Made by a program: the position numbers and the translations under genes. Below, piece after piece: positions 32,496-41,141 of a DNA stretch of 47,271 nucleotides; positions within the stretch are counted from its first letter, which is position 1; each line of letters begins with the position of its first letter. Source of the stretch: Merismopedia glauca CCAP 1448/3 (lineage in GTDB: Bacteria > Cyanobacteriota > Cyanobacteriia > Cyanobacteriales > CCAP-1448); assembly GCF_003003775.1 (NCBI RefSeq), contig NZ_PVWJ01000023.1, positions 1-47,271 of the forward strand. Reading direction: 5' to 3'. The notes under the pieces are model-generated. The model saw only the letters and a list, made by a program, of their open reading frames with translations, did not search any database and had not been told where the DNA came from.

Positions 32496-33530
32496 CTAAT
32501 TTTCCAGATAACTGGATTTAGCAAAGATAGAGGCATAAACTAACTGCTGCACTTCTTGAACTATCTGACCTGCGAAATAGCTGCCGTTTAGAGTTTGTAA
32601 GTTGAGATTGAGGAATTTTTCTTCCTTAGTTACGTCAAACTTCTCTGGTGGGATTTTCGTTAGGTTTTGCTGGACTTCCTTTTCCCAAGCAGACCGACTG
32701 GCAGATAACTGCTGGCGCAATTCCTGAAGGTTTTGGGCGATAAATGGTTCTACAGGTGCAGATTTAACGGGAGAGCGCATTTCTGCCTGCATTGCCGCTA
32801 CCCCATAGCTGAAGCAAACTAAAGGCATCCACACTTCCGCAAAGTAAGCGGGATTGGGGGCAATTTCCAGACCTACTAATTTGTCGTGAATTAGGAACAG
32901 TGCGCCAATTTGGTTGGGTATGAGTTCAAATCGACTTTGATATTGGGTTAGGTATGCCCGCTTGTTGCTGATAATTTGCTCTAAATGACCTCGGTTGGGT
33001 AGGTTAAGTTGCTGGTTGAGGCGACTGATTCCCGCCCACAATTTACTATAACCAGGTATCCCTTGCAAGGATAGGGCTTCTTCTCGCAGTTGTAAGGGGA
33101 GAATGAAGAACCACTGTTCTTTTTCTGTTAAATATCCGCCTTGCGCCGCTTGAACGCAACAAGCATCCTCAAACATCAGTTTTTGCCCGGAGGCGATGAA
33201 TGCAGACCGACACAAGGCATGATTTTGGGCTTTGTCTTGAATGTAACCCATGTGCAAAGGTGCGATCGCTATCCCCTGTGTATGGTTAGTCAGTTCCATG
33301 TTGCCATAACCCCGCACCGCAGAGAGTTTCAACCCAGTTAAAGGGGCGCAAAAGCGATCTCTAGTAGCGTTTGAGGTGTTAAAAATCGGAACGACTGTCA
33401 TGCAGCCAGATTTTTGCGGCATTCCCACGTAGTAGGGCGGTAAATCCCCCTGGAAGGGAATTAAACTGGTAGCGGGTGCGGTGGGACGGTAGGATTTAAA
33501 GATTTGGGGGACGAGTTTTTGGAAGTCCAC
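32496..33530 (-). CDS. Uncharacterised protein coupled to the vWA gene
   Basis: A 344-residue soluble protein. GTG at 33528-33530 is the start, supported by AGGAG 8 bases upstream. The first 70 bases overlap the end of the vWA gene, a sign of translational coupling. The N-terminal half is beta-rich (MTVVPIFNTSNATRDRFCAPLTGLKL, then GYGNMELTNHTQGIAIAPLHMGYIQDKAQNHAL). The C-terminal half has FELIPNQIGALFLIHDKLVGLEIAP and a helix YFAEVWMPLVCFSYGVAAMQAE. It also contains a Cys pair (DACCVQAAQGGYL). I do not recognise the family with confidence. Its coupling to a Ro60-like protein and the nearby RNA ligase suggests a role in the same RNA-related pathway; that is inference. Confidence 0.75.
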   Translation of the reverse strand: MDFQKLVPQIFKSYRPTAPATSLIPFQGDLPPYYVGMPQKSGCMTVVPIFNTSNATRDRFCAPLTGLKLSAVRGYGNMELTNHTQGIAIAPLHMGYIQDKAQNHALCRSAFIASGQKLMFEDACCVQAAQGGYLTEKEQWFFILPLQLREEALSLQGIPGYSKLWAGISRLNQQLNLPNRGHLEQIISNKRAYLTQYQSRFELIPNQIGALFLIHDKLVGLEIAPNPAYFAEVWMPLVCFSYGVAAMQAEMRSPVKSAPVEPFIAQNLQELRQQLSASRSAWEKEVQQNLTKIPPEKFDVTKEEKFLNLNLQTLNGSYFAGQIVQEVQQLVYASIFAKSSYLEN

Positions 33531-34840
33531 GATGGTAACTCCTGTTGCATATGTGTCAGCTTTTGGCTGAGGAAGGTTTGCAAGTCGGTTTCACCTGCTT
33601 TACCAACTAGCGCCAACAGCGAGATGATTAAATCGCTAAAATCGGCTTGATGCCAGAAGGACAATTCAATTAGATTGGTAGCAGGGCGACGCAATTCCAA
33701 GTCGTCTAGGTTGGTAAACTTGCTGTGGCAGAAGATGACGGGGGTATAAATCCCGATTTGAGGTAGGGTGGCGGCAACTTTGGCTAAATCACCTGGAATA
33801 AAGTTTTCGTAGCCGTCGGAGACAATGAGAACTGCATCTGGGTTATCTGCCAGTGCGTCGAGCAATCCAGTGGCTAAATCGGTGTATCCTGAAGGATTGG
33901 GGAGAATATATTCGGTTCCGCCAACCTGATGGACTCTTAAGTTAGTACAGCATTCTTCCAGGACGAATTTGAGTGCCATTGTTTGAGACAAACAGCAGTA
34001 TTCGCGATCGCCATAACTGCGGGTAGAAGCGGATAAATCGAGAACTAACCCCAATTTGCCGTTAAATTTAGGCAATTGGCTGGCTGCTTCGCGCACGTAT
34101 TCCTTCAACGCAAACAACAAGTCGGGAGATTCCCCACCGCGATAGAGATGAACTAGAGTTGCCGCAATTCCCCCCCGATTAGTAGCAGTAACGGTTGCAG
34201 GACGTTCTCTAACCTTCTGGAAGTTAGCTAAGGCTGCTAGATGAGAATTTTGATACGTCCCTTCGCCCATTTGCCGGAATTCCTGGCTATAAAGTTGCGG
34301 AAAAACGGTTTTCAAGGCGCTATCGTTGGGGACAAATCGAGTCAAGCAATTACCATTGAGGTTTTTAACACAACCCCGCGCCGTATTTTTGCCCAAGGCG
34401 TGTTCTAAAATATCCACAAGAGCAGGACGACGACATTTAGCTATGTCTGTTAATTCGGGATGATGGTTGAAATATTGGAGAATGGCTCTACTAGTATGCT
34501 TGTGATTGGCTCTTACCCGTCGCAAGGCGAGGAAGATTCTCAAAACTCTGTCTGGGTGGGTGAGAGATAAAATAATATTCGTTGCAGTAGTCAAAAGAGA
34601 ACGAACTTCTAGATTCAATCCCAAGCGAGAACGTTGCAATAATTGGAATAGAATGCGATCGCGTTGGTATGGCTGCACGCTAGAAACTAATCCCAAAAGT
34701 GCGTACAGTTGCGGATTGTAGTCGTATACTTCTCGATGCAAAGCTTCGTCACTCCATTGCGGAGGTTGACCATTTCGTTTGAGTTGAAACGGTTCGTTAT
34801 GCGATCGCAAATGTTCTATAAACTTATAAATTAATGTCAT
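33461..34840 (-). CDS. vWA-domain protein with Ro60/TROVE-like layout
   Basis: A 459-residue protein in two parts. Residues about 30-250 are helical (RDRILFQLLQRSRLGLNLEVRSLL, LRIFLALRRVRANHKHTSRAI), like a HEAT-type ring. Residues about 262-425 form a von Willebrand A domain with a complete MIDAS: DLSAS (268-272), Thr320 and the Asp of IVSDG (342). This helical-plus-vWA order and size match Ro60/TROVE RNA-binding proteins, which handle misfolded small RNAs and Y RNAs. The TROVE identity is an inference from layout. AGGAG precedes the ATG. Its 3' end overlaps the next gene by 70 bp, and the RNA ligase gene lies 154 bp upstream. Confidence 0.75.
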   Translation of the reverse strand: MTLIYKFIEHLRSHNEPFQLKRNGQPPQWSDEALHREVYDYNPQLYALLGLVSSVQPYQRDRILFQLLQRSRLGLNLEVRSLLTTATNIILSLTHPDRVLRIFLALRRVRANHKHTSRAILQYFNHHPELTDIAKCRRPALVDILEHALGKNTARGCVKNLNGNCLTRFVPNDSALKTVFPQLYSQEFRQMGEGTYQNSHLAALANFQKVRERPATVTATNRGGIAATLVHLYRGGESPDLLFALKEYVREAASQLPKFNGKLGLVLDLSASTRSYGDREYCCLSQTMALKFVLEECCTNLRVHQVGGTEYILPNPSGYTDLATGLLDALADNPDAVLIVSDGYENFIPGDLAKVAATLPQIGIYTPVIFCHSKFTNLDDLELRRPATNLIELSFWHQADFSDLIISLLALVGKAGETDLQTFLSQKLTHMQQELPSWTSKNSSPKSLNPTVPPHPLPV

Positions 34841-34994
34841 TATTCTGCTCCTAAATTGTGAGGAGTTAAGTAGGTCGGCATGAATATTTATCGTTGAGAC
34901 AAGGCAGAAGGCAGAGGGCAGGAGGCAGGAGGGAAGAGAATTTGAGCATAGTTTACTTTTTGTTACATACCTTGATTTATTTGTGCTGTTCTAC

Positions 34995-35987
34995 TTAATG
35001 CAATTCAGTGCCTTCTTTGCGGAGCAAATAGCGATCGCTCAGCAATTTTAAAGCTACTCTACCAATATGGCGATCAGTGCGTTCAATTATTGGTTGAACA
35101 ATGACACCTTCCATCAAACATTTGGGGTAAAGTACGCTATCGGCGTTGTTGAATTGACTTACTGCATCCCAACTGTATTTGCCTATATAAAGTACGGGTA
35201 CTCTAGGTAGGTTGAATTCTTCACAGAAAGCCACAAAATCTGAATAGTTTAGAAATGTTTGTCCTTGGCGAACTGCAAATAAAGCAAGTCCAATTTTGCC
35301 GTTGTTCAAACCATATTTGATATCTTGAACTCCATAAACTTCTCCGAAAACTTGAACGTTCGCAGGAAGTTTTTGTAAAGCGACATTCTCTTGGTAGGCG
35401 CGGATGTAAACTGAGTTTTTGTTAGTTTCATCGTTTTTCCAAAAGTAGTTATGACTCCCAATGTGAGGAATGCCTTCTTTATCCATCCAGACGGTAAAGT
35501 TAGTGCCGTGGATCTTTTCAGTTATTACAATCTCTTCTCCTTCAATCAAAACATCAGGGTAGCGTTTGAGGTGTTCGGGACTGGGGAATTGGCGATGGGC
35601 GATCGCATTTTCTACGTTTCCACCCATACTTTGAGGAATAGGATATTCGTATTTGGTTACACCGAAATGTTCGGTGTAGTCATCGCCAATTGTACAAGTA
35701 AATTTTTCGCCGACAGGGATTAGCAATCCTTCAGAAAATATACCTCTGAGTTTAGCTGCACGGAGTTTTTTGCTGTAGTAAGAACGAATGCCAAATTCGT
35801 CTAAATAAGCTTCAGGAATAACGCTATCAATCGGAAAGTAAAAAGCTAAATCTCCAGACTTTAAATTACCGCTTGCCGTAATGACTTGGTATGCCATGCC
35901 TTGGAGGGTAGCAATTTCTAGGCGATCGGCATTGGGATGTTTGTTGATGGTTTCGATTTGGACTACTTCTACTTTAAAAATGCTCAT
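34995..35987 (-). CDS. RNA ligase, Rnl5/DraRnl type
   Basis: An ATP-dependent ligase that seals nicks in RNA. The 330-residue protein has an N-terminal OB-like domain (HPNADRLEIATLQG, as in EMAP/tRNA-binding folds). The nucleotidyltransferase domain follows, with motif I EKIHGTN (adenylated Lys158), motif III VFGEVYG (213-219), motif IV MEGVIVQP (292-299) and motif V VALKLLS (311-317). This domain order is that of Deinococcus Rnl5-type ligases. It is the first protein gene after the tRNA array, 107 bp past tRNA-Ile on the same strand, with the vWA protein following. No Shine-Dalgarno is visible. Confidence 0.9.
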   Translation of the reverse strand: MSIFKVEVVQIETINKHPNADRLEIATLQGMAYQVITASGNLKSGDLAFYFPIDSVIPEAYLDEFGIRSYYSKKLRAAKLRGIFSEGLLIPVGEKFTCTIGDDYTEHFGVTKYEYPIPQSMGGNVENAIAHRQFPSPEHLKRYPDVLIEGEEIVITEKIHGTNFTVWMDKEGIPHIGSHNYFWKNDETNKNSVYIRAYQENVALQKLPANVQVFGEVYGVQDIKYGLNNGKIGLALFAVRQGQTFLNYSDFVAFCEEFNLPRVPVLYIGKYSWDAVSQFNNADSVLYPKCLMEGVIVQPIIERTDRHIGRVALKLLSDRYLLRKEGTELH

Positions 35988-36167: not shown

Positions 36168-36171
36168 ATAA

Positions 36172-36254
36172 AGGAAGATGGAGGAATCGAACCCCTAAGC
36201 CTTCACTTACCCTGGTTTTCAAGACCAGTTGCCATCCTTTTAGCGGCATCTTCC
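36172..36254 (-). tRNA. tRNA-Ser (TGA), in array
   Basis: Class II tRNA of 83 nt with acceptor GGAAGAT/ATCTTCC, anticodon stem CTGGT/ACCAG, loop CTTGAAA, a long variable arm and T-loop TTCGATT. The discriminator is T, unusual for Ser, where G is normal. Confidence 0.85.
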
Positions 36255-36257
36255 TTG

Positions 36258-36329
36258 AGGGCGTTTGAGGAGACTTGAACTCACGAATTGAGTGTGGCGC
36301 ACTCAGATGTTACCAACTACATCACACCC
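36258..36329 (-). tRNA. tRNA-Gly (GCC), degenerate, in array
   Basis: 72 nt with acceptor GGGTGTG/AACGCCC, anticodon stem TGAGT/ACTCA and loop GCGCCAC. T-loop is TTCAAGT. Position 33 is C instead of the invariant T, and the T stem is weak. Discriminator T is normal for Gly. Function is doubtful. Confidence 0.7.
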
Positions 36330-36339
36330 GCAATTCCGA

Positions 36340-36413
36340 AGCTGGCAACAGGAGTCGAACCTGCAACCTACCGATTACAAATCGGTTGCTCTGCCACATT
36401 GAGCTATACCAGC
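36340..36413 (-). tRNA. tRNA-Thr (TGT), in array
   Basis: 74 nt with acceptor GCTGGTA/TGCCAGC, D arm GCTC/GAGC, anticodon stem CCGAT/ATCGG, loop TTGTAAT and T-loop TTCGACT. A regular cloverleaf; CCA not encoded. Confidence 0.93.
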
Positions 36414-36419
36414 ATTTGG

Positions 36420-36495
36420 TGGCGGGGGTAGGAATTGAACCTACTAATAAAAGGCTTATGAGACCTCCAAGCCTACCGTGGCTAAGTCACCCGCA
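36420..36495 (-). tRNA. tRNA-Met-like (CAT), in array
   Basis: 76 nt. The anticodon stem GAGGT/GCCTT holds loop CTCATAA, and the T arm is perfect (GTAGG TTCAATT CCTAC). The acceptor has mismatches at its ends (TGCGGGT/CCCCGCC) and the D arm is irregular. Discriminator A is followed by encoded CCA. The anticodon could be Met, or Ile if the first base is modified to lysidine. Confidence 0.78.
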
Positions 36496-36516
36496 TTGCA
36501 CCAAACAACATTTTGG

Positions 36517-36589
36517 TGGGTCGTTGGAGACTCGAACTCCAACTTCACTGCTTAAAAGGCAGTTGCTCTGCCAATTGAGCTAACGACCC
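36517..36589 (-). tRNA. tRNA-Lys (TTT), in array
   Basis: 73 nt with perfect acceptor GGGTCGT/ACGACCC, D arm GCTC/GAGC, anticodon stem ACTGC/GCAGT, loop CTTTTAA and T arm TGGAG/CTCCA. Discriminator A followed by encoded CCA. Regular and probably functional. Confidence 0.95.
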
Positions 36590-36670
36590 ATATCTTGTTG
36601 GAAAATCCTGAATTTAGATTATGATACTTCCAGCCGGACTCGAAAGTTTAAAATTGGTTGCTTCAAAGTT

Positions 36671-37309
36671 GTGACTACAAAAATAGAAGTTGTATGCGAT
36701 CGCTGTGGTAAGTCATTTTTTCGCTCCATTAGTAAATACAATCAGGATGTCAAAAAAGGCTGGATGCAGTTCTGTTCTAAAGAATGCCATTGGCTAGCTC
36801 AAGATAAAAGACAAGAGGTTGTTTGTGCTAACTGTGGTACTACATTTATTAAGCAGCTAGCACAAATTAGGCAGACTAAGAACAATTTTTGCTCTCGATC
36901 TTGTTCTGCGACTTATTCCAACAAGCATAAAACCAAAGGAAACCGAAGATCTAAACTTGAAATTTGGCTCGAATCTCAACTGTCTGTGCTTTATCCAGCG
37001 TTAGATATTCATTACAATCGTAAAGATGCGATCGATGCAGAACTAGATATTTACATTCCTTCGATTACTTTAGCCATAGAGTTAAACGGTATTTTTCACT
37101 ATGAGCCAATTTATGGAAAAAACAAGCTCTTACAAATTCAAAACAATGACAAGAGAAAGTTTCAGGCTTGTTTAGAAATAGGAATAGAGCTATGTTGGAT
37201 CGATACATCCAGTCTGACTTATTTCAAAGTCAATAAAGCTCAGAATTACTTACAAATAATCACTCAAATTATTGACAGTAAATTGAATCTTAGTGAGTTA
37301 AAAATTTAG
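36671..37309 (+). CDS. Zinc-ribbon, PD-(D/E)xK-like (homing-type) endonuclease
   Basis: A 212-residue protein encoded inside the tRNA array on the opposite strand. Two zinc-binding knuckles come first: C9-x2-C12 with C35-x3-C39, and C52-x2-C55 with C74-x3-C78. A nuclease-like core follows: SKLEIWLESQL, then DAELDIYIPSITLAIELNGIFHYEP with acidic residues on adjacent strands, and ND-KRKFQACLEIGIELCWID. This is the layout of restriction-fold free-standing homing endonucleases found in phages, but the exact family is uncertain. It starts with GTG. It lies between tRNA-Lys and tRNA-Leu, interrupting no tRNA, so it probably arrived as a selfish gene and may mobilise the array. Confidence 0.8.
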   Translation: MTTKIEVVCDRCGKSFFRSISKYNQDVKKGWMQFCSKECHWLAQDKRQEVVCANCGTTFIKQLAQIRQTKNNFCSRSCSATYSNKHKTKGNRRSKLEIWLESQLSVLYPALDIHYNRKDAIDAELDIYIPSITLAIELNGIFHYEPIYGKNKLLQIQNNDKRKFQACLEIGIELCWIDTSSLTYFKVNKAQNYLQIITQIIDSKLNLSELKI

Positions 37310-37345
37310 CAGACTGAATTGAGGAAGTAACAATAACTTCCTTCA

Positions 37346-37420
37346 TGCTCCTGGTGAGATTTGAACTCACAACCTACCGACCCTAAATCGGTCGCCTGCT
37401 TCCAGTTGGGCTACAGGAGC
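37346..37420 (-). tRNA. tRNA with TAG anticodon (Leu) on a class I body, in array
   Basis: 75 nt with perfect acceptor GCTCCTG/CAGGAGC, anticodon stem ACCGA/TCGGT, loop TTTAGGG and T arm GTGAG TTCAAAT CTCAC. The anticodon TAG reads Leu CTA codons. Leu tRNAs normally have a long variable arm; here it is only 5 nt (AGGTT). Discriminator A fits Leu. Confidence 0.82.
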
Positions 37421-37466
37421 ACAATTTAATGCCATCCAAGTTAATGCTGAACTTGAGAGAGCATAA

Positions 37467-37540
37467 CTGAGGAAGCAGGGCTTGAACCTGCATTTTTCCG
37501 CTTTCAAAGAGCGGTGCCATACCGATTAGGCGATTCCTCA
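37467..37540 (-). tRNA. tRNA-Gln (TTG), in array
   Basis: 74 nt with acceptor TGAGGAA/TTCCTCA, anticodon stem CCGCT/AGCGG, loop CTTTGAA and T-loop TTCAAGC. The discriminator G and the weak first pair fit Gln identity. CCA not encoded. Confidence 0.93.
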
Positions 37541-37551
37541 AGGAATATTGG

Positions 37552-37624
37552 CTGCCCCAGTAGGAATCGAACCTACAACCTCCGCGTTAACAGCGCGTTG
37601 CTCTGCCAATTGAGCTATAGGGCA
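37552..37624 (-). tRNA. tRNA-Asn (GTT), in array
   Basis: 73 nt with acceptor TGCCCTA/TGGGGCA, D arm GCTC/GAGC, anticodon loop CTGTTAA and T arm GTAGG TTCGATT CCTAC. Discriminator G is followed by encoded CCA. Differs from the stand-alone tRNA-Asn at 30118, which has no CCA. Confidence 0.93.
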
Positions 37625-37633
37625 TTGAACCAG

Positions 37634-37816
37634 TCCCCCAGGTCAGTATCGAACTCAGGACTTACGCACCCAGCCAGATTATCGACGGAAGAATGAGGCT
37701 TCTAGCTTCTAACGCAACTCTTAAAACCACGAGATTTCGTTTCAGTGCGTAAGTCCTAGAACTGACGACCTCTGGTTTTTCAGACCAGCGCTCTCACCAA
37801 GCTGAGCTACCAGGGG
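37634..37816 (-). pseudogene. tRNA-Phe (GAA) interrupted in the T-loop by a MITE
   Basis: The two halves reconstruct a normal 75-nt tRNA-Phe. The acceptor is CCCCTGG/CTGGGGG, D arm GCTC/GAGC, anticodon stem CTGGT/ACCAG, loop CTGAAAA, T stem GTCAG/CTGAC and discriminator A. A 103-bp element at 37656-37758, with its 5-bp target duplication, splits the T-loop. The interrupted gene should not yield a working tRNA unless the insert is removed, and nothing suggests an intron. Confidence 0.92.
37656..37758. mobile_element. 103-bp MITE inserted in tRNA-Phe
   Basis: Perfect 13-bp inverted repeats AGGACTTACGCAC (37657-37669) and GTGCGTAAGTCCT (37745-37757). A 5-bp direct repeat GAACT flanks it (37651-37655 and 37759-37763). 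The element is non-coding. The GGACTTACGCA end is familiar from small cyanobacterial elements. Confidence 0.92.
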
Positions 37817-37820
37817 ATAA

Positions 37821-37892
37821 CGAGAACGGAAGGAATTGAACCCTCATCATCAGGGTCGAAACCTGATATGTTATCCTTTACACTACGTTCTC
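37821..37892 (-). tRNA. tRNA-Arg (TCG), in array
   Basis: 72 nt with perfect acceptor GAGAACG/CGTTCTC, D stem GTGT/ACAT, anticodon stem TCAGG/CCTGA, loop TTTCGAC and T arm GAGGG TTCAATT CCTTC. Discriminator G. CCA not encoded. Confidence 0.9.
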
Positions 37893-37896
37893 AAGG

Positions 37897-37984
37897 CGGA
37901 GAGAGAGGGAGTCGAACCCACAGTGAGATAGTTAATCCCACCACTGTTTAGCAAACAGCTTGCTTTGCCAATGGCGATCTCTCC
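37897..37984 (-). tRNA. tRNA-Ser (GCT), in array
   Basis: 88-nt class II tRNA with perfect acceptor GGAGAGA/TCTCTCC, anticodon stem GCTGT/ACAGT, loop TTGCTAA, a long variable arm and T-loop TTCGACT. Discriminator G, as normal for Ser. Confidence 0.93.
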
Positions 37985-37988
37985 ACAA

Positions 37989-38069
37989 TGGGTCGGGCTG
38001 GAATTGAACCAGCAACCATAAACGGACTGTTTTACAGACAGCTACCCCCACCAATAGGTGAGCCGACCC
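37989..38069 (-). tRNA. tRNA-Tyr (GTA), in array
   Basis: 81-nt class II tRNA, as expected for bacterial Tyr. Acceptor GGGTCGG/CCGACCC, anticodon stem GCTGT/ACAGT, loop CTGTAAA, long variable arm, T arm GCTGG TTCAATT CCAGC and discriminator A. Confidence 0.95.
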
Positions 38070-38078
38070 AAATCATTC

Positions 38079-38107
38079 GTAGAGACGTAGCAGTGCTACG
38101 TCTCTAC
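38079..38107. repeat. Palindromic repeat, GTAGAGACGTAGCA family, inside the array
   Basis: 29-bp palindrome with arms identical to those at 17468, differing only in the central base (G for C), again followed by AGAAGT. It separates tRNA-Tyr from tRNA-Trp. Confidence 0.9.
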
Positions 38108-38180
38108 AGAAGTAAAATTCAAGCTGAATTGATAGTTTCAGGCTGGGAAAATGTCTTAACCGTTCTGGCAACTGCTTTAT

Positions 38181-38221
38181 CTATTGCATACAAAACTTTT
38201 ATTGAATTGAGTATGCAATAG
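38181..38221. repeat. Long hairpin between tRNA-Tyr and tRNA-Trp
   Basis: Perfect 11-bp inverted repeat CTATTGCATAC (38181-38191) and GTATGCAATAG (38211-38221) with a 19-nt loop. It lies 3 bp from the 3' end of tRNA-Trp, so it could guide processing or be the scar of an element. Confidence 0.65.
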
Positions 38222-38223
38222 AA

Positions 38224-38319
38224 CGCAGAGACTAGGATTTGTTCGCGCAGCGTCTCCGTTAGGAGATACCTAGAACATCGACTTTGGAGATCGAGATGTT
38301 GCCGTTACACCATCCCTGC
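38224..38319 (-). pseudogene. tRNA-Trp (CCA) with an insertion in the T-loop
   Basis: Acceptor GCAGGGA/TCTCTGC, D stem GTGT/ACAT, anticodon stem TCGAT/GTCGA with loop CTCCAAA, T stem CTAGG/CCTAG and discriminator G together define tRNA-Trp. The T-loop is 32 nt instead of 7, because a 26-nt small repeat replaces one of its bases. It is probably inactive, although an enlarged T-loop without disruption of any stem could still fold. Confidence 0.87.
38242..38267. repeat. Small dispersed repeat inserted in tRNA-Trp
   Basis: The 26-nt insert contains TTCGCGCAGCGTCTCC and a TCTCC/GGAGA hairpin on loop GTTA. It resembles the very small dispersed repeats with GCGTCTCC cores known from cyanobacterial genomes; the resemblance is from memory. 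Confidence 0.65.
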
Positions 38320-38325
38320 ATCTGG

Positions 38326-38397
38326 TAGCAGTGGCGAGAGTTGAACTCGCATATCCTCACTTATGAGATGAGTACCTTGCCGTTAGGTGACACTGCG
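38326..38397 (-). tRNA. tRNA-Met (CAT), second copy in array
   Basis: 72 nt with anticodon stem CTCAT/GTGAG, loop CTCATAA and T arm GCGAG TTCAACT CTCGC. In the acceptor the first pair is mismatched (C against T), and the other six pairs form. A 1-72 mismatch is an initiator-type trait, but the three G-C pairs of initiator anticodon stems are absent. Discriminator A followed by encoded CCA. Confidence 0.87.
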
Positions 38398-38406
38398 TCG
38401 ATTTGG

Positions 38407-38478
38407 AGTCTGAGATGGGAATTGAACCCATGATGAACTGTTTTGCAGACAGTTGCCTTCCCACTTGGCTACTCAGAC
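38407..38478 (-). tRNA. tRNA-Cys (GCA), in array
   Basis: 72 nt with perfect acceptor GTCTGAG/CTCAGAC, anticodon stem ACTGT/ACAGT, loop CTGCAAA and T arm ATGGG TTCAATT CCCAT. Discriminator T, as required for Cys, followed by encoded CCA. Confidence 0.95.
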
Positions 38479-38484
38479 ATTTGG

Positions 38485-38558
38485 CAGTCCTGACGGGAGT
38501 TGCACCCGCTTCTCTGTAGTTGAAAATCACAGCGACTTCTCTATTTGCCCACAGGACT
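38485..38558 (-). tRNA. tRNA-Glu (TTC), in array
   Basis: 74 nt with perfect acceptor AGTCCTG/CAGGACT, anticodon loop TTTTCAA on a stem with one mismatch, and T arm GCGGG/CCCGT. The T-loop is TGCAACT, departing from TTC. Discriminator G followed by encoded CCA. Confidence 0.87.
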
Positions 38559-38562
38559 ACGA

Positions 38563-38636
38563 CGGGGATGACGGGACTTGAACCCGCGACTTTCTGTTCG
38601 ACAGACAGGCGCTCTTCTCTACTGAGCTACACCCCC
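38563..38636 (-). tRNA. tRNA-Asp (GTC), first gene of the array
   Basis: 74 nt with acceptor GGGGGTG/CATCCCC, D arm GCTC/GAGC, anticodon loop CTGTCGA and T arm GCGGG TTCAAGT CCCGT. Discriminator G. It is the promoter-proximal gene of the array. Confidence 0.94.
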
Positions 38637-38710
38637 AAATGTGGCAATCTATGAAGTTTTCAAGGTTCTGATGGATTGATGCTGGGCTTTGGATTGGCTT
38701 CGCATCACTC

Positions 38711-38759
38711 ATACTACATTTATAATACATATACTACAGAATGTCAACCCCATACTACA
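38711..38759 (-). promoter_or_regulatory. tRNA-array promoter overlapped by three TGTAGTAT octamers
   Basis: On the minus strand a consensus -35 TTGACA (38742-38747) and -10 TATAAA (38719-38724) are exactly 17 bp apart, about 80 bp before tRNA-Asp. TGTAGTAT occurs just upstream of the -35 (38752-38759), in the spacer (38731-38738) and just downstream of the -10 (38711-38718), with 20-21 bp periods. The octamers therefore face the same side of the helix, as expected of a repressor operator. The regulator is unknown. Confidence 0.75.
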
Positions 38760-38775
38760 AATTTTTTGAAAGTTT

Positions 38776-38832: not shown

Positions 38833-39213
38833 TCACACGCAAGAGGAAATAGGTGAGAGGCTATCTTGCCACAACTTGTAGATCCAGGATTCAGCCTTTG
38901 AGTCGCTCAGGGGTGCGAAGAAGATACCTTCATCTGCAACTGGACTTTCGGCGATCCAAACTCCTGTCAGGGTGACTTCAATAGATTCGTCGTCAACCTT
39001 AACCACAGAGCTAGCTTCGTGGTGTAACAGTAGTCCTAGTTCAACTAGTCCAACCCCAATAGCGGGAAGCAAAAAGGATGCTTCAGTTGGAGTAATATGG
39101 AGACTACATCCCAAAGACAATGCGAGGAGAGAACGCGAGGCGATCGCATGGTCTAGGGAAGTGTCCACTAGCTCCATATGCAATCCGGTTTCGGTGTAAG
39201 TTAACTTCAGCAT
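38833..39213 (-). CDS. Small protein encoded after the HNH endonuclease, function unknown
   Basis: A 126-residue soluble protein beginning MLKLTYTETGLHMELVD. I place the start at the ATG at 39211-39213, 10 bp after the HNH stop. A longer frame overlapping the HNH gene is open but unlikely. It has a hydrophobic middle (SFLLPAIGVGLVELGLLLHH) and an acidic beta-rich C-terminal part (ESIEVTLTGVWIAESPVADEGIFFAPL). Probably co-transcribed with the HNH gene and perhaps functionally tied to it. No family recognised. Confidence 0.68.
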   Translation of the reverse strand: MLKLTYTETGLHMELVDTSLDHAIASRSLLALSLGCSLHITPTEASFLLPAIGVGLVELGLLLHHEASSVVKVDDESIEVTLTGVWIAESPVADEGIFFAPLSDSKAESWIYKLWQDSLSPISSCV

Positions 39214-39223
39214 TCCGGTTTTA

Positions 39224-39748
39224 CTAGTTGATATCAACGGTTTCTTGGGTTTTCCAAAACTGGTCGCCAAAGGCAACAGCAGGATGAGCGGGGGCTTTGG
39301 GTTTGGCTTGTAGTACCATTCCAACTTCATGAAGAAGGCGATCGCCTTTAACTTGGTTGCATCTTTCGCAAGCTGTCACCACGTTTTCCCATTTGTGCTG
39401 TCCCCCTTTAGAACGAGGGATGACGTGATCGATGGTGAGACGCTTATTGCTACTACAGTATTGACAAGTGTGATTGTCTCGTCTCAGTAAGTCCCGCCGA
39501 TTGACAGGAGGAACTTTCCAATGCCGTTCTGGATTGCCACCTTTAAGGCGAATTTGGGGAGAAATTTGGATAACTATGCTGGGAGAACGGATTTCCCAGT
39601 ATTTCCCATTGCCCAGATCTAAAGATTCCGCTTGTTCTCTCACTAGTAGGGCGATCGCCCTTTTGAGGTTGATTCTAGTTAGCGGTAAGTAGTTCTTGGA
39701 AAATACTACAACCGTGTTTTGTAGTATGTCTGGCGGCTGAACTTCCAT
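39224..39748 (-). CDS. HNH endonuclease
   Basis: A 174-residue nuclease. The HNH motif is complete: DNHTCQYCSSNKRLTIDHVIPRSKGG, then HKWENVVTACERCNQVKGDR. It has two CxxC zinc knuckles and the catalytic IDHVIPRSKGG His. Residues 1-85 form a separate domain (VFSKNYLPLTRINLKRAIALLVREQAESLD). Similar stand-alone HNH proteins are widespread in cyanobacteria. A strong AGGAG precedes the ATG. An inverted pair of the array octamer (TGTAGTAT/ATACTACA, 39703-39727) lies within its first codons. It is the first gene of the minus-strand block leading into the tRNA array. Confidence 0.92.
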   Translation of the reverse strand: MEVQPPDILQNTVVVFSKNYLPLTRINLKRAIALLVREQAESLDLGNGKYWEIRSPSIVIQISPQIRLKGGNPERHWKVPPVNRRDLLRRDNHTCQYCSSNKRLTIDHVIPRSKGGQHKWENVVTACERCNQVKGDRLLHEVGMVLQAKPKAPAHPAVAFGDQFWKTQETVDIN

Positions 39749-39803: not shown

Positions 39804-40172
39804 GGGGGAAATTGGTACTTTTTACCCTATGTTGGTGCTAGAAACTGCTGCACCTCCCGCTTTGGTGGACTTTACCCAGATTTATGACTGCTGCAATAAT
39901 ATCGAAATCTCTGCGATCGCTGGCGCGATCGCCTTTTGGACTCCGCTGTACCCAATTACTAAATAACTCACAACTTCCCTCACCCAAATACAACAAAGCT
40001 CCGCCGACCTCAGCTTTCATGGCTGTGGAGGGCGAGCTATGTAGTGTCGATGAGAATTTGGGAGTCATTGAAGGTAAGTTCTGTTTGTATTACAAGTTAA
40101 CTGTTTATATACTACACACGTCAGATTGATTTGTCCAGAAATTTGTGAGTTATTTTTTTAAGCTTTGTAAAA
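39804..40172. other. Intergenic region between pstB and HNH, with a doubtful short frame
   Basis: A 76-codon frame (40068 to 39838, minus) and an overlapping plus frame (39884-40129) are open, but neither has a ribosome site or a recognisable motif. The minus product ends RRDFDIIAAVINLGKVHQSG, slightly reminiscent of the tail of TnpB-type transposases, so this may be relic sequence. One further ATACTACA octamer lies at 40109-40116. Confidence 0.4.
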
Positions 40173-41003
40173 TTAGCCCCTACTCCCGTTAACATAAGCT
40201 GCTGTAATTGGGTTTTGAGGTGCTGCAAATATTTGCTCGGTGACACCATACTCAATCAATTGTCCTCGATCTTGGTTGACCCAAAAGCAAGCGACATAAT
40301 CGGCGATGCGTCGAGCTTGGGGCAGATTGTGGGTGACAATTACGACTGTATAATTATTTCGCAAGTTGAGAATTAAATCTTCTACTACGCCGCTAGAAAT
40401 AGGATCTAAGGCGCTACAAGGTTCATCCATGAGGATAACTTGGGGATTAAGAGCAAGGGCGCGAGCGATGCAGAGGCGTTGTTGTTGACCGCCAGATAGA
40501 GATAGGGCACTACTTTGCAACCTATCTTTGACTTCATCCCATAATCCTACTGCGCGCAGACTATTTTCGACGATCTGGTCGAGGCGATCGCGGTCTTTAA
40601 TTCCATGTTCTTGGAGGGGGAAAACCAGGTTTTTCCAAATGGATAAGGGGAAAGGATTGGGTTTTTGGCAAATCAGACTGACTCGGCGACGCAATGCTAT
40701 AGCATCTGTTTTGGGATGAAGAACATTGAGGGTTCCAATCTGGATGTCTCCTGAAACTTGACAGCAAGGAATCAAGTCTGTGAGGCGGTTGAGACAGCAT
40801 AAAAAGCTACTTTTCCCGCAACCGGAAGGACCAACTATGGCGGTAATTTCACCTGCGGGGATAGACAGGGTAACGTTACCAAAAGCTGATTTTGAGCCAT
40901 ATTGCAAGCTCAGTTGATGGGTTTGAATGAGAGGGTGGAAGTCTTCTGGGAGTTCTACCTGACAAATACAAGGTGTAGCGATCGAATCTTTTATGTAAGT
41001 CAT
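40173..41003 (-). CDS. pstB: Phosphate ABC transporter ATP-binding protein
   Basis: ATPase of the high-affinity phosphate importer. 276 residues with Walker A GPSGCGKSS, Q-loop region SLICQKPNPFPLSIW, signature LSGGQQQRLCIARALA, Walker B VILMDEPCSALDP and switch His in VTHNLPQA. The NPFP after the Q-loop is typical of PstB. It is the last gene of the minus-strand ars-pst run, separated from pstA by 138 bp holding an interspersed palindrome. The canonical order S-C-A-B is kept. Confidence 0.94.
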   Translation of the reverse strand: MTYIKDSIATPCICQVELPEDFHPLIQTHQLSLQYGSKSAFGNVTLSIPAGEITAIVGPSGCGKSSFLCCLNRLTDLIPCCQVSGDIQIGTLNVLHPKTDAIALRRRVSLICQKPNPFPLSIWKNLVFPLQEHGIKDRDRLDQIVENSLRAVGLWDEVKDRLQSSALSLSGGQQQRLCIARALALNPQVILMDEPCSALDPISSGVVEDLILNLRNNYTVVIVTHNLPQARRIADYVACFWVNQDRGQLIEYGVTEQIFAAPQNPITAAYVNGSRG

Positions 41004-41056
41004 AAATTTAAGGAAGAGGGAATAGGGAAGAAGGAAGAAGGATGAGTAATATGGCA

Positions 41057-41085
41057 GTAGAGACGTAGCACTGCTACGTCTCTAC
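41057..41085. repeat. Palindromic repeat, GTAGAGACGTAGCA family, between pstA and pstB
   Basis: Same 29-bp palindrome as at 17468. As an mRNA hairpin it could lower pstB expression relative to pstA or protect the upstream message from decay. Confidence 0.9.
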
Positions 41086-41141
41086 CAAATTCAGCAGTAA
41101 AAATCAAGATATATATGGATAAATAAATCAGAATGACAGAT

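Follow-up and report, generated by a model that had tools for sequence, protein, structure and literature searches.

In Merismopedia glauca CCAP 1448/3, we analysed a 47,271-nt stretch of DNA (contig NZ_PVWJ01000023.1; hereafter the window) that carries a minus-strand tRNA array at 36171–38637, reading Asp, Glu, Cys, Met and on to Ser, in which ARAGORN identified 13 tRNA genes and Rfam gave 17 tRNA-like minus-strand matches. The first gene, for tRNA-Asp, lies directly behind the promoter and shares its strand, starting at 38637, so that the window holds a long co-directional tRNA cluster with Asp first behind an operator promoter, as in trn-type arrays. The −35 hexamer TTGACA (38742–38747) and the −10 hexamer TATAAA (38719–38724) lie 17 bp apart, and the near-consensus TTGACA-17-TATAAA promoter reported in the first-pass annotation is thus present, at 38747–38719 of the minus strand. 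With positions numbered from the first T of TTGACA, exact copies of the octamer TGTAGTAT, all on the minus strand, occur 4 bp 5′ of the −35 (octamer 1; 38752–38759, start −12), in the −35/−10 spacer (octamer 2; 38731–38738, start +9) and just 3′ of the −10 (octamer 4; 38711–38718, start +29), the latter two being 8-bp sites of the type described below for the repressor TrcR and flanking TATAAA. Steps between these exact copies are 21 and 20 bp, and the three octamers at 20–21 bp steps described earlier were therefore located at their coordinates; overlooked, however, was a fourth, degenerate copy with one mismatch, TGTATTAT (octamer 3; 38722–38729, minus strand, start +18), which overlaps the −10 and changes the steps to 21, 9 and 11 bp. 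From 5′ to 3′, the minus strand reads TGTAGTAT-GGGG-TTGACA-TTC-TGTAGTAT-A-TGTATTAT-AAA-TGTAGTAT, with an A-tract (the AAAAAATT region, 38760–38768) 5′ of octamer 1.

The octamer occurs seven times in the window compared to 1.17 expected, a count reached in none of 100 shuffles. Genome-wide, it is not enriched (106 copies versus 113 for the reversed control), and single octamers therefore cannot define a regulon. At that genome-wide density, only ~1e-7 triples with 20–22 bp steps are expected per genome, and a motif search for further octamer clusters, as had been proposed, found tandem pairs with a gap of at most 20 bp at just two places in the whole 5.2-Mb genome: two pairs here and one on another contig, C92. 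The multi-rung clustering is more than chance.

Two genes of the array carry inserts. A ~100-bp element with inverted ends GGACTTACGCAC and GTGCGTAAGTCC (37656–37760) lies within the T-arm of a tRNA-Phe (GAA) gene, which was missed by ARAGORN and matched in part by Rfam (37749–37809), and a tRNA-Trp-like gene at 38224–38319, found by Rfam and not by ARAGORN, has a ~25–30 bp insert in its T-arm region. Both inserts suggest that the array is decaying. Also inside the array, against its direction, is a plus-strand 212-aa gene (36671–37309) with cysteine pairs, small-endonuclease-like by eye and with no Pfam or NCBIfam match. The palindromes GTAGAGACGTAGCA(C/G)TGCTACGTCTCTAC found in the array (38079–38107) and 5′ of transporter genes (41054–41087) are probably a small mobile repeat. 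3′ of the array, its strand carries (32496–35987) genes for an RNA ligase, a 459-aa product and an ARPP-1 domain protein, a possible RNA-repair cluster, with the DRB0094-type ligase (34995–35987) scoring slightly under the NCBIfam cut-off and over that of Pfam RNA_ligase. As a conserved array partner the ligase was rejected, given matches in 5 of 30 genomes (that of the window and four others, one match being partial), with neither octamers nor tRNA genes adjoining it in those four others.

On its other side, the array adjoins three minus-strand genes: an alr0857-family gene (38833–39330; NCBIfam NF045647 alr0857_fam, E 2.7e-37), an HNH endonuclease gene that is the probable alr0856 orthologue (39224–39748; Pfam HNH_5/HNH) and a small ORF at the asr0855 position (39838–40068), assigned weakly by this position and by-eye likeness to the small ORFs of relatives and with a C-terminal SGR-like motif. 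The probable promoter of this asr0855–HNH–alr0857 operon, TGGACA-17-TAGTAT, has a single exact octamer (40109–40116, minus strand), and a corresponding octamer is present in the HNH-orthologue loci of relatives. There, the orthologues of the window HNH gene adjoin trcR. This gene is missing from its usual place beside the HNH operon in the window, where a phosphate-type ABC transporter gene (40173–41003) is found instead. An inverted octamer pair at 39703/39720 was rejected as an operator because it falls on ILQ and VVVF codons of the HNH gene; exact octamers at this position are absent in nearly all HNH orthologues, and the pair is probably a coding coincidence.

A full-text literature search for the octamer linked it to TrcR (all0854) of Anabaena sp. 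PCC 7120, a ribbon–helix–helix repressor with an 8-bp site (Wang et al., 2023; PMC10272220). According to that paper, TrcR protects TGTAGTAT on the trn promoter in footprints, and the one octamer mentioned in its text overlaps the −10 (TAGTAT) of trn, an operon of 26 genes. The operon is off during normal growth and is switched on by deletion of trcR or by antibiotics that target elongation (chloramphenicol and two 30S-targeting drugs, Sp and Sm), TrcR protein levels drop with chloramphenicol, and a Leu44 to Pro change in TrcR abolishes binding. Adjoining trcR are asr0855, alr0856 (HNH) and alr0857, which are derepressed along with it, and loss of TrcR raises expression of alr1554, an ABC transporter ATP-binding gene, 112-fold (PMC10272220).

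An intact trcR is present in the M. glauca genome on a separate contig (C180:4220–4552; 74% identity, E 6.3e-49, no stops), with the published autoregulatory motif ATACTACACTTGTATTAC letter for letter 5′ of its start (locus L040). From its place, its ribbon–helix–helix-like N-terminus and its Leu44 numbering, we also identified as TrcR the predicted ~110-residue product of the divergent gene beside the HNH orthologues of relatives. Leu44 is invariant across 16 TrcR orthologues, ten of which match Pfam RHH_1 weakly (best E 0.0069, under Pfam's cut-off); among solved structures, none is close to TrcR by sequence. The window and Anabaena trn thus have in common an octamer on the tRNA-array promoter and HNH/alr0857 neighbours, and their TrcR proteins share family, the conserved Leu44 and the autoregulatory motif. 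They differ in that the window has three exact octamers plus a near one and TATAAA as −10, where the Anabaena text describes one octamer overlapping TAGTAT, and in that one window copy lies 5′ of the −35, unlike in that text. Moreover, the window array adjoins the asr0855–HNH–alr0857 operon and trcR has moved away, whereas in Anabaena it is trcR that adjoins these genes. The first-pass annotation had postulated repressor operators, an array kept off and release under stress; this agrees with the published TrcR system and the intact trcR in this genome, and the nature of the feature was guessed right, without naming the repressor or its Anabaena precedent.

To what extent the layout is conserved was surveyed in 386 cyanobacterial genomes, 102 with TrcR and 284 without. 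Tandem octamers 8–12 bp apart occur in 45 of the former and four of the latter (odds ratio 55, p 1.4e-25, statistics that ignore shared ancestry), leaving 57 TrcR genomes with no exact tandem pair; for pairs 13–38 bp apart there was no clear link to TrcR presence (p 0.06). Among 100 pairs in TrcR genomes, the spacing was 11 bp in 41 and 8–12 bp in 76, with smaller groups at 21–22 and 33 bp. The peak corresponds to one helical turn, which places the operator copies in helical register. Alignment of array promoters revealed a typical order of A-rich tract (present in most), conserved −35 TTGAC(A/G), octamer at +10/+11 and octamer at +21/+22; in most arrays this last octamer supplies the −10 through its TAGTAT, 17–18 bp from TTGACA. 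The octamer at +9 to +11 is conserved, at times as a one-mismatch or inverted copy, and, like the window, 8 of 23 aligned promoters carry a further octamer at −12, exact or with a single mismatch. Since most arrays step 22 and 11 bp and use the last octamer as −10, the 20–21 bp layout of the window is a variant. The degenerate TGTATTAT recurs at octamer positions of four other loci (L074, L090, L091 and L108), two of which, L090 and L091, belong to a single genome, G081, where the last octamer is at +30. In the window and G081 alike, the promoter is stretched: one more, degenerate octamer lies near the −10, and the last octamer begins at +29/+30. TrcR-like matches number four in G081, one of them partial, and the window-like promoter stands before two or more of its arrays (L090 and L091), with a TrcR-like gene close to the array at L091.

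Because most aligned promoters had been found via octamer pairs, arrays were also gathered via the neighbouring HNH gene, ignoring octamers. A close HNH orthologue was found in 19 genomes, that of the window included, and in eight of these tRNA genes lie in array position beside it (G000, G001, G003, G004, G009, G012, G015 and G026). All eight arrays have TTGACA and two in-register octamer sites, one-mismatch or inverted copies being counted; in G003 and G009 ARAGORN finds only two or three tRNA genes, so that these arrays are short or degraded. When 84,980 species genomes were searched with the pattern TTGACA-N(3–5)-octamer-N(2–4)-octamer, at least 116 matches were obtained, and all 80 loci listed are cyanobacterial, one of them labelled Gloeobacterales. 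Among the matches listed, a tRNA array follows 54 of the 81 sites, with seven too close to a sequence end to judge, and the first tRNA is Asp in 44 of those 54 arrays. The module was not found in viral contigs. Judged from these sequence comparisons, tandem octamers in helical phase are a signature of cyanobacterial array promoters. It extends to plasmid arrays of Nostoc, Tolypothrix and Calothrix, for example on pNOS7524.01 of Nostoc sp. PCC 7524 and plasmid2 of Calothrix sp. NIES-4101, which have TTGACA and octamers (or forms with one to two mismatches) at about −12, +10 and +21. Unlike the window, these are plasmid-borne, step 22 and 11–12 bp and form the −10 with the last octamer.

We consider it very probable that the octamers are TrcR operators, that bound TrcR silences the array, and that a block in elongation lowers TrcR so that the array is transcribed. 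TrcR dimers would occupy octamers on about one face of the DNA across the whole −35/−10 promoter and exclude RNA polymerase from this strong promoter, keeping the tRNA array silent; a block in translation elongation would lower TrcR and allow transcription to start. TrcR may sit on every rung in M. glauca, possibly including the degenerate TGTATTAT, and neighbouring dimers may bind cooperatively, a reading that fits the conserved helical phasing of the octamers. Ribbon–helix–helix repressors commonly read tandem short words through adjacent dimers, which suits the one-turn octamer spacing. The putative TrcR ladder resembles in this the operators of Arc, MetJ, omega and CopG, in which short words bound by adjacent dimers recur at intervals of roughly a helical turn or less; TrcR differs from these proteins in its separate cyanobacterial lineage, its weak Pfam RHH matches and the putative status of its cooperativity. 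Counting against the TrcR reading are the 21, 9 and 11 bp spacing versus the common 22 and 11 bp, the location of trcR away from the array, the 57 of 102 genomes with no exact pair, statistics blind to kinship and the weak Pfam matches.

Somewhat doubtful, to our mind, is the chief rival reading, a simpler arrangement in which TrcR at one octamer near the −10 occludes the promoter, with the other copies adding little and binding non-cooperatively. In its favour, the Anabaena paper's text names a single octamer over the trn −10 (PMC10272220), one octamer seems enough for many TrcR targets, and exact tandem pairs occur in only 45 of the 102 TrcR genomes. Nonetheless, the copies hold register over many families, as unused copies should not, and the commonest distance between them, 11 bp in 41 of 100 pairs, corresponds to one helical turn. 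That the octamers are instead repeated −10-like promoter elements (TG-TAGTAT) for RNA polymerase, with no repressor involved, could be read from the position of the last octamer's TAGTAT at the −10 of most arrays, 17–18 bp from TTGACA, but is very unlikely: the copy 5′ of the −35 would be useless as a −10, pairs track TrcR presence, and TrcR protects the octamer in the published footprint (PMC10272220). The displacement of trcR from the array might point to a different DNA-binding protein reading the octamers in M. glauca; this is highly improbable given that trcR is intact at another place in the genome and retains its exact operator, and the array promoter has no NtcA site (GTA-N8-TAC). A functionless ladder born of chance or a small tandem duplication, for which one might cite the AT-rich octamer and its lack of genome-wide enrichment, can be dismissed in view of the ~1e-7 triples expected, the dissimilar spacers between copies and, above all, the layout conserved across families, which refutes it.

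Returning to repression by TrcR at several octamers, its core biology (TrcR, the octamer, and trn repression and release) is already published for Anabaena; less has been written about the layout of several sites at even spacing. What we add is the phylum-wide in-phase module, as read from the genomes compared, and its stretched four-rung variant in the window. Sequence comparison alone thereby links silent tRNA arrays, which are poorly understood, to a single repressor throughout cyanobacteria, and the TTGACA-octamer-octamer module has the specificity needed to search for such arrays. An in-phase ladder would predict a switch-like release of a spare tRNA set under translational stress. Tentatively, and with less confidence than we would need to favour it, we suggest that arrays may be read through a TrcR ladder. 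It would have as many as four or five rungs, each roughly a turn from the next and the empty one holding the −35, and the number and quality of the rungs would set a steep threshold; arrays would then be on only below a set TrcR level and would respond after single-octamer targets, trcR itself among them.

Octamer pairs were also seen away from tRNA arrays. Two small genomes of ~2 Mb from a family without TrcR (G320 and G245) have in common an 11-bp octamer pair, TGTAGTATTATTGTAGTAT, with no tRNA genes behind it (L113 and L114). In M. glauca, the C92 pair is a direct one with 9-bp spacing, located where an ABC exporter gene begins (L035:2327–2343). On contig C35 of the same genome, an inverted pair, ATACTACA-N4-TGTAGTAT (L034:2117–2136), lies 5′ of a small gene followed by one for a KptA/Tpt1 RNA 2′-phosphotransferase, making this locus a possible further candidate TrcR target in RNA repair.
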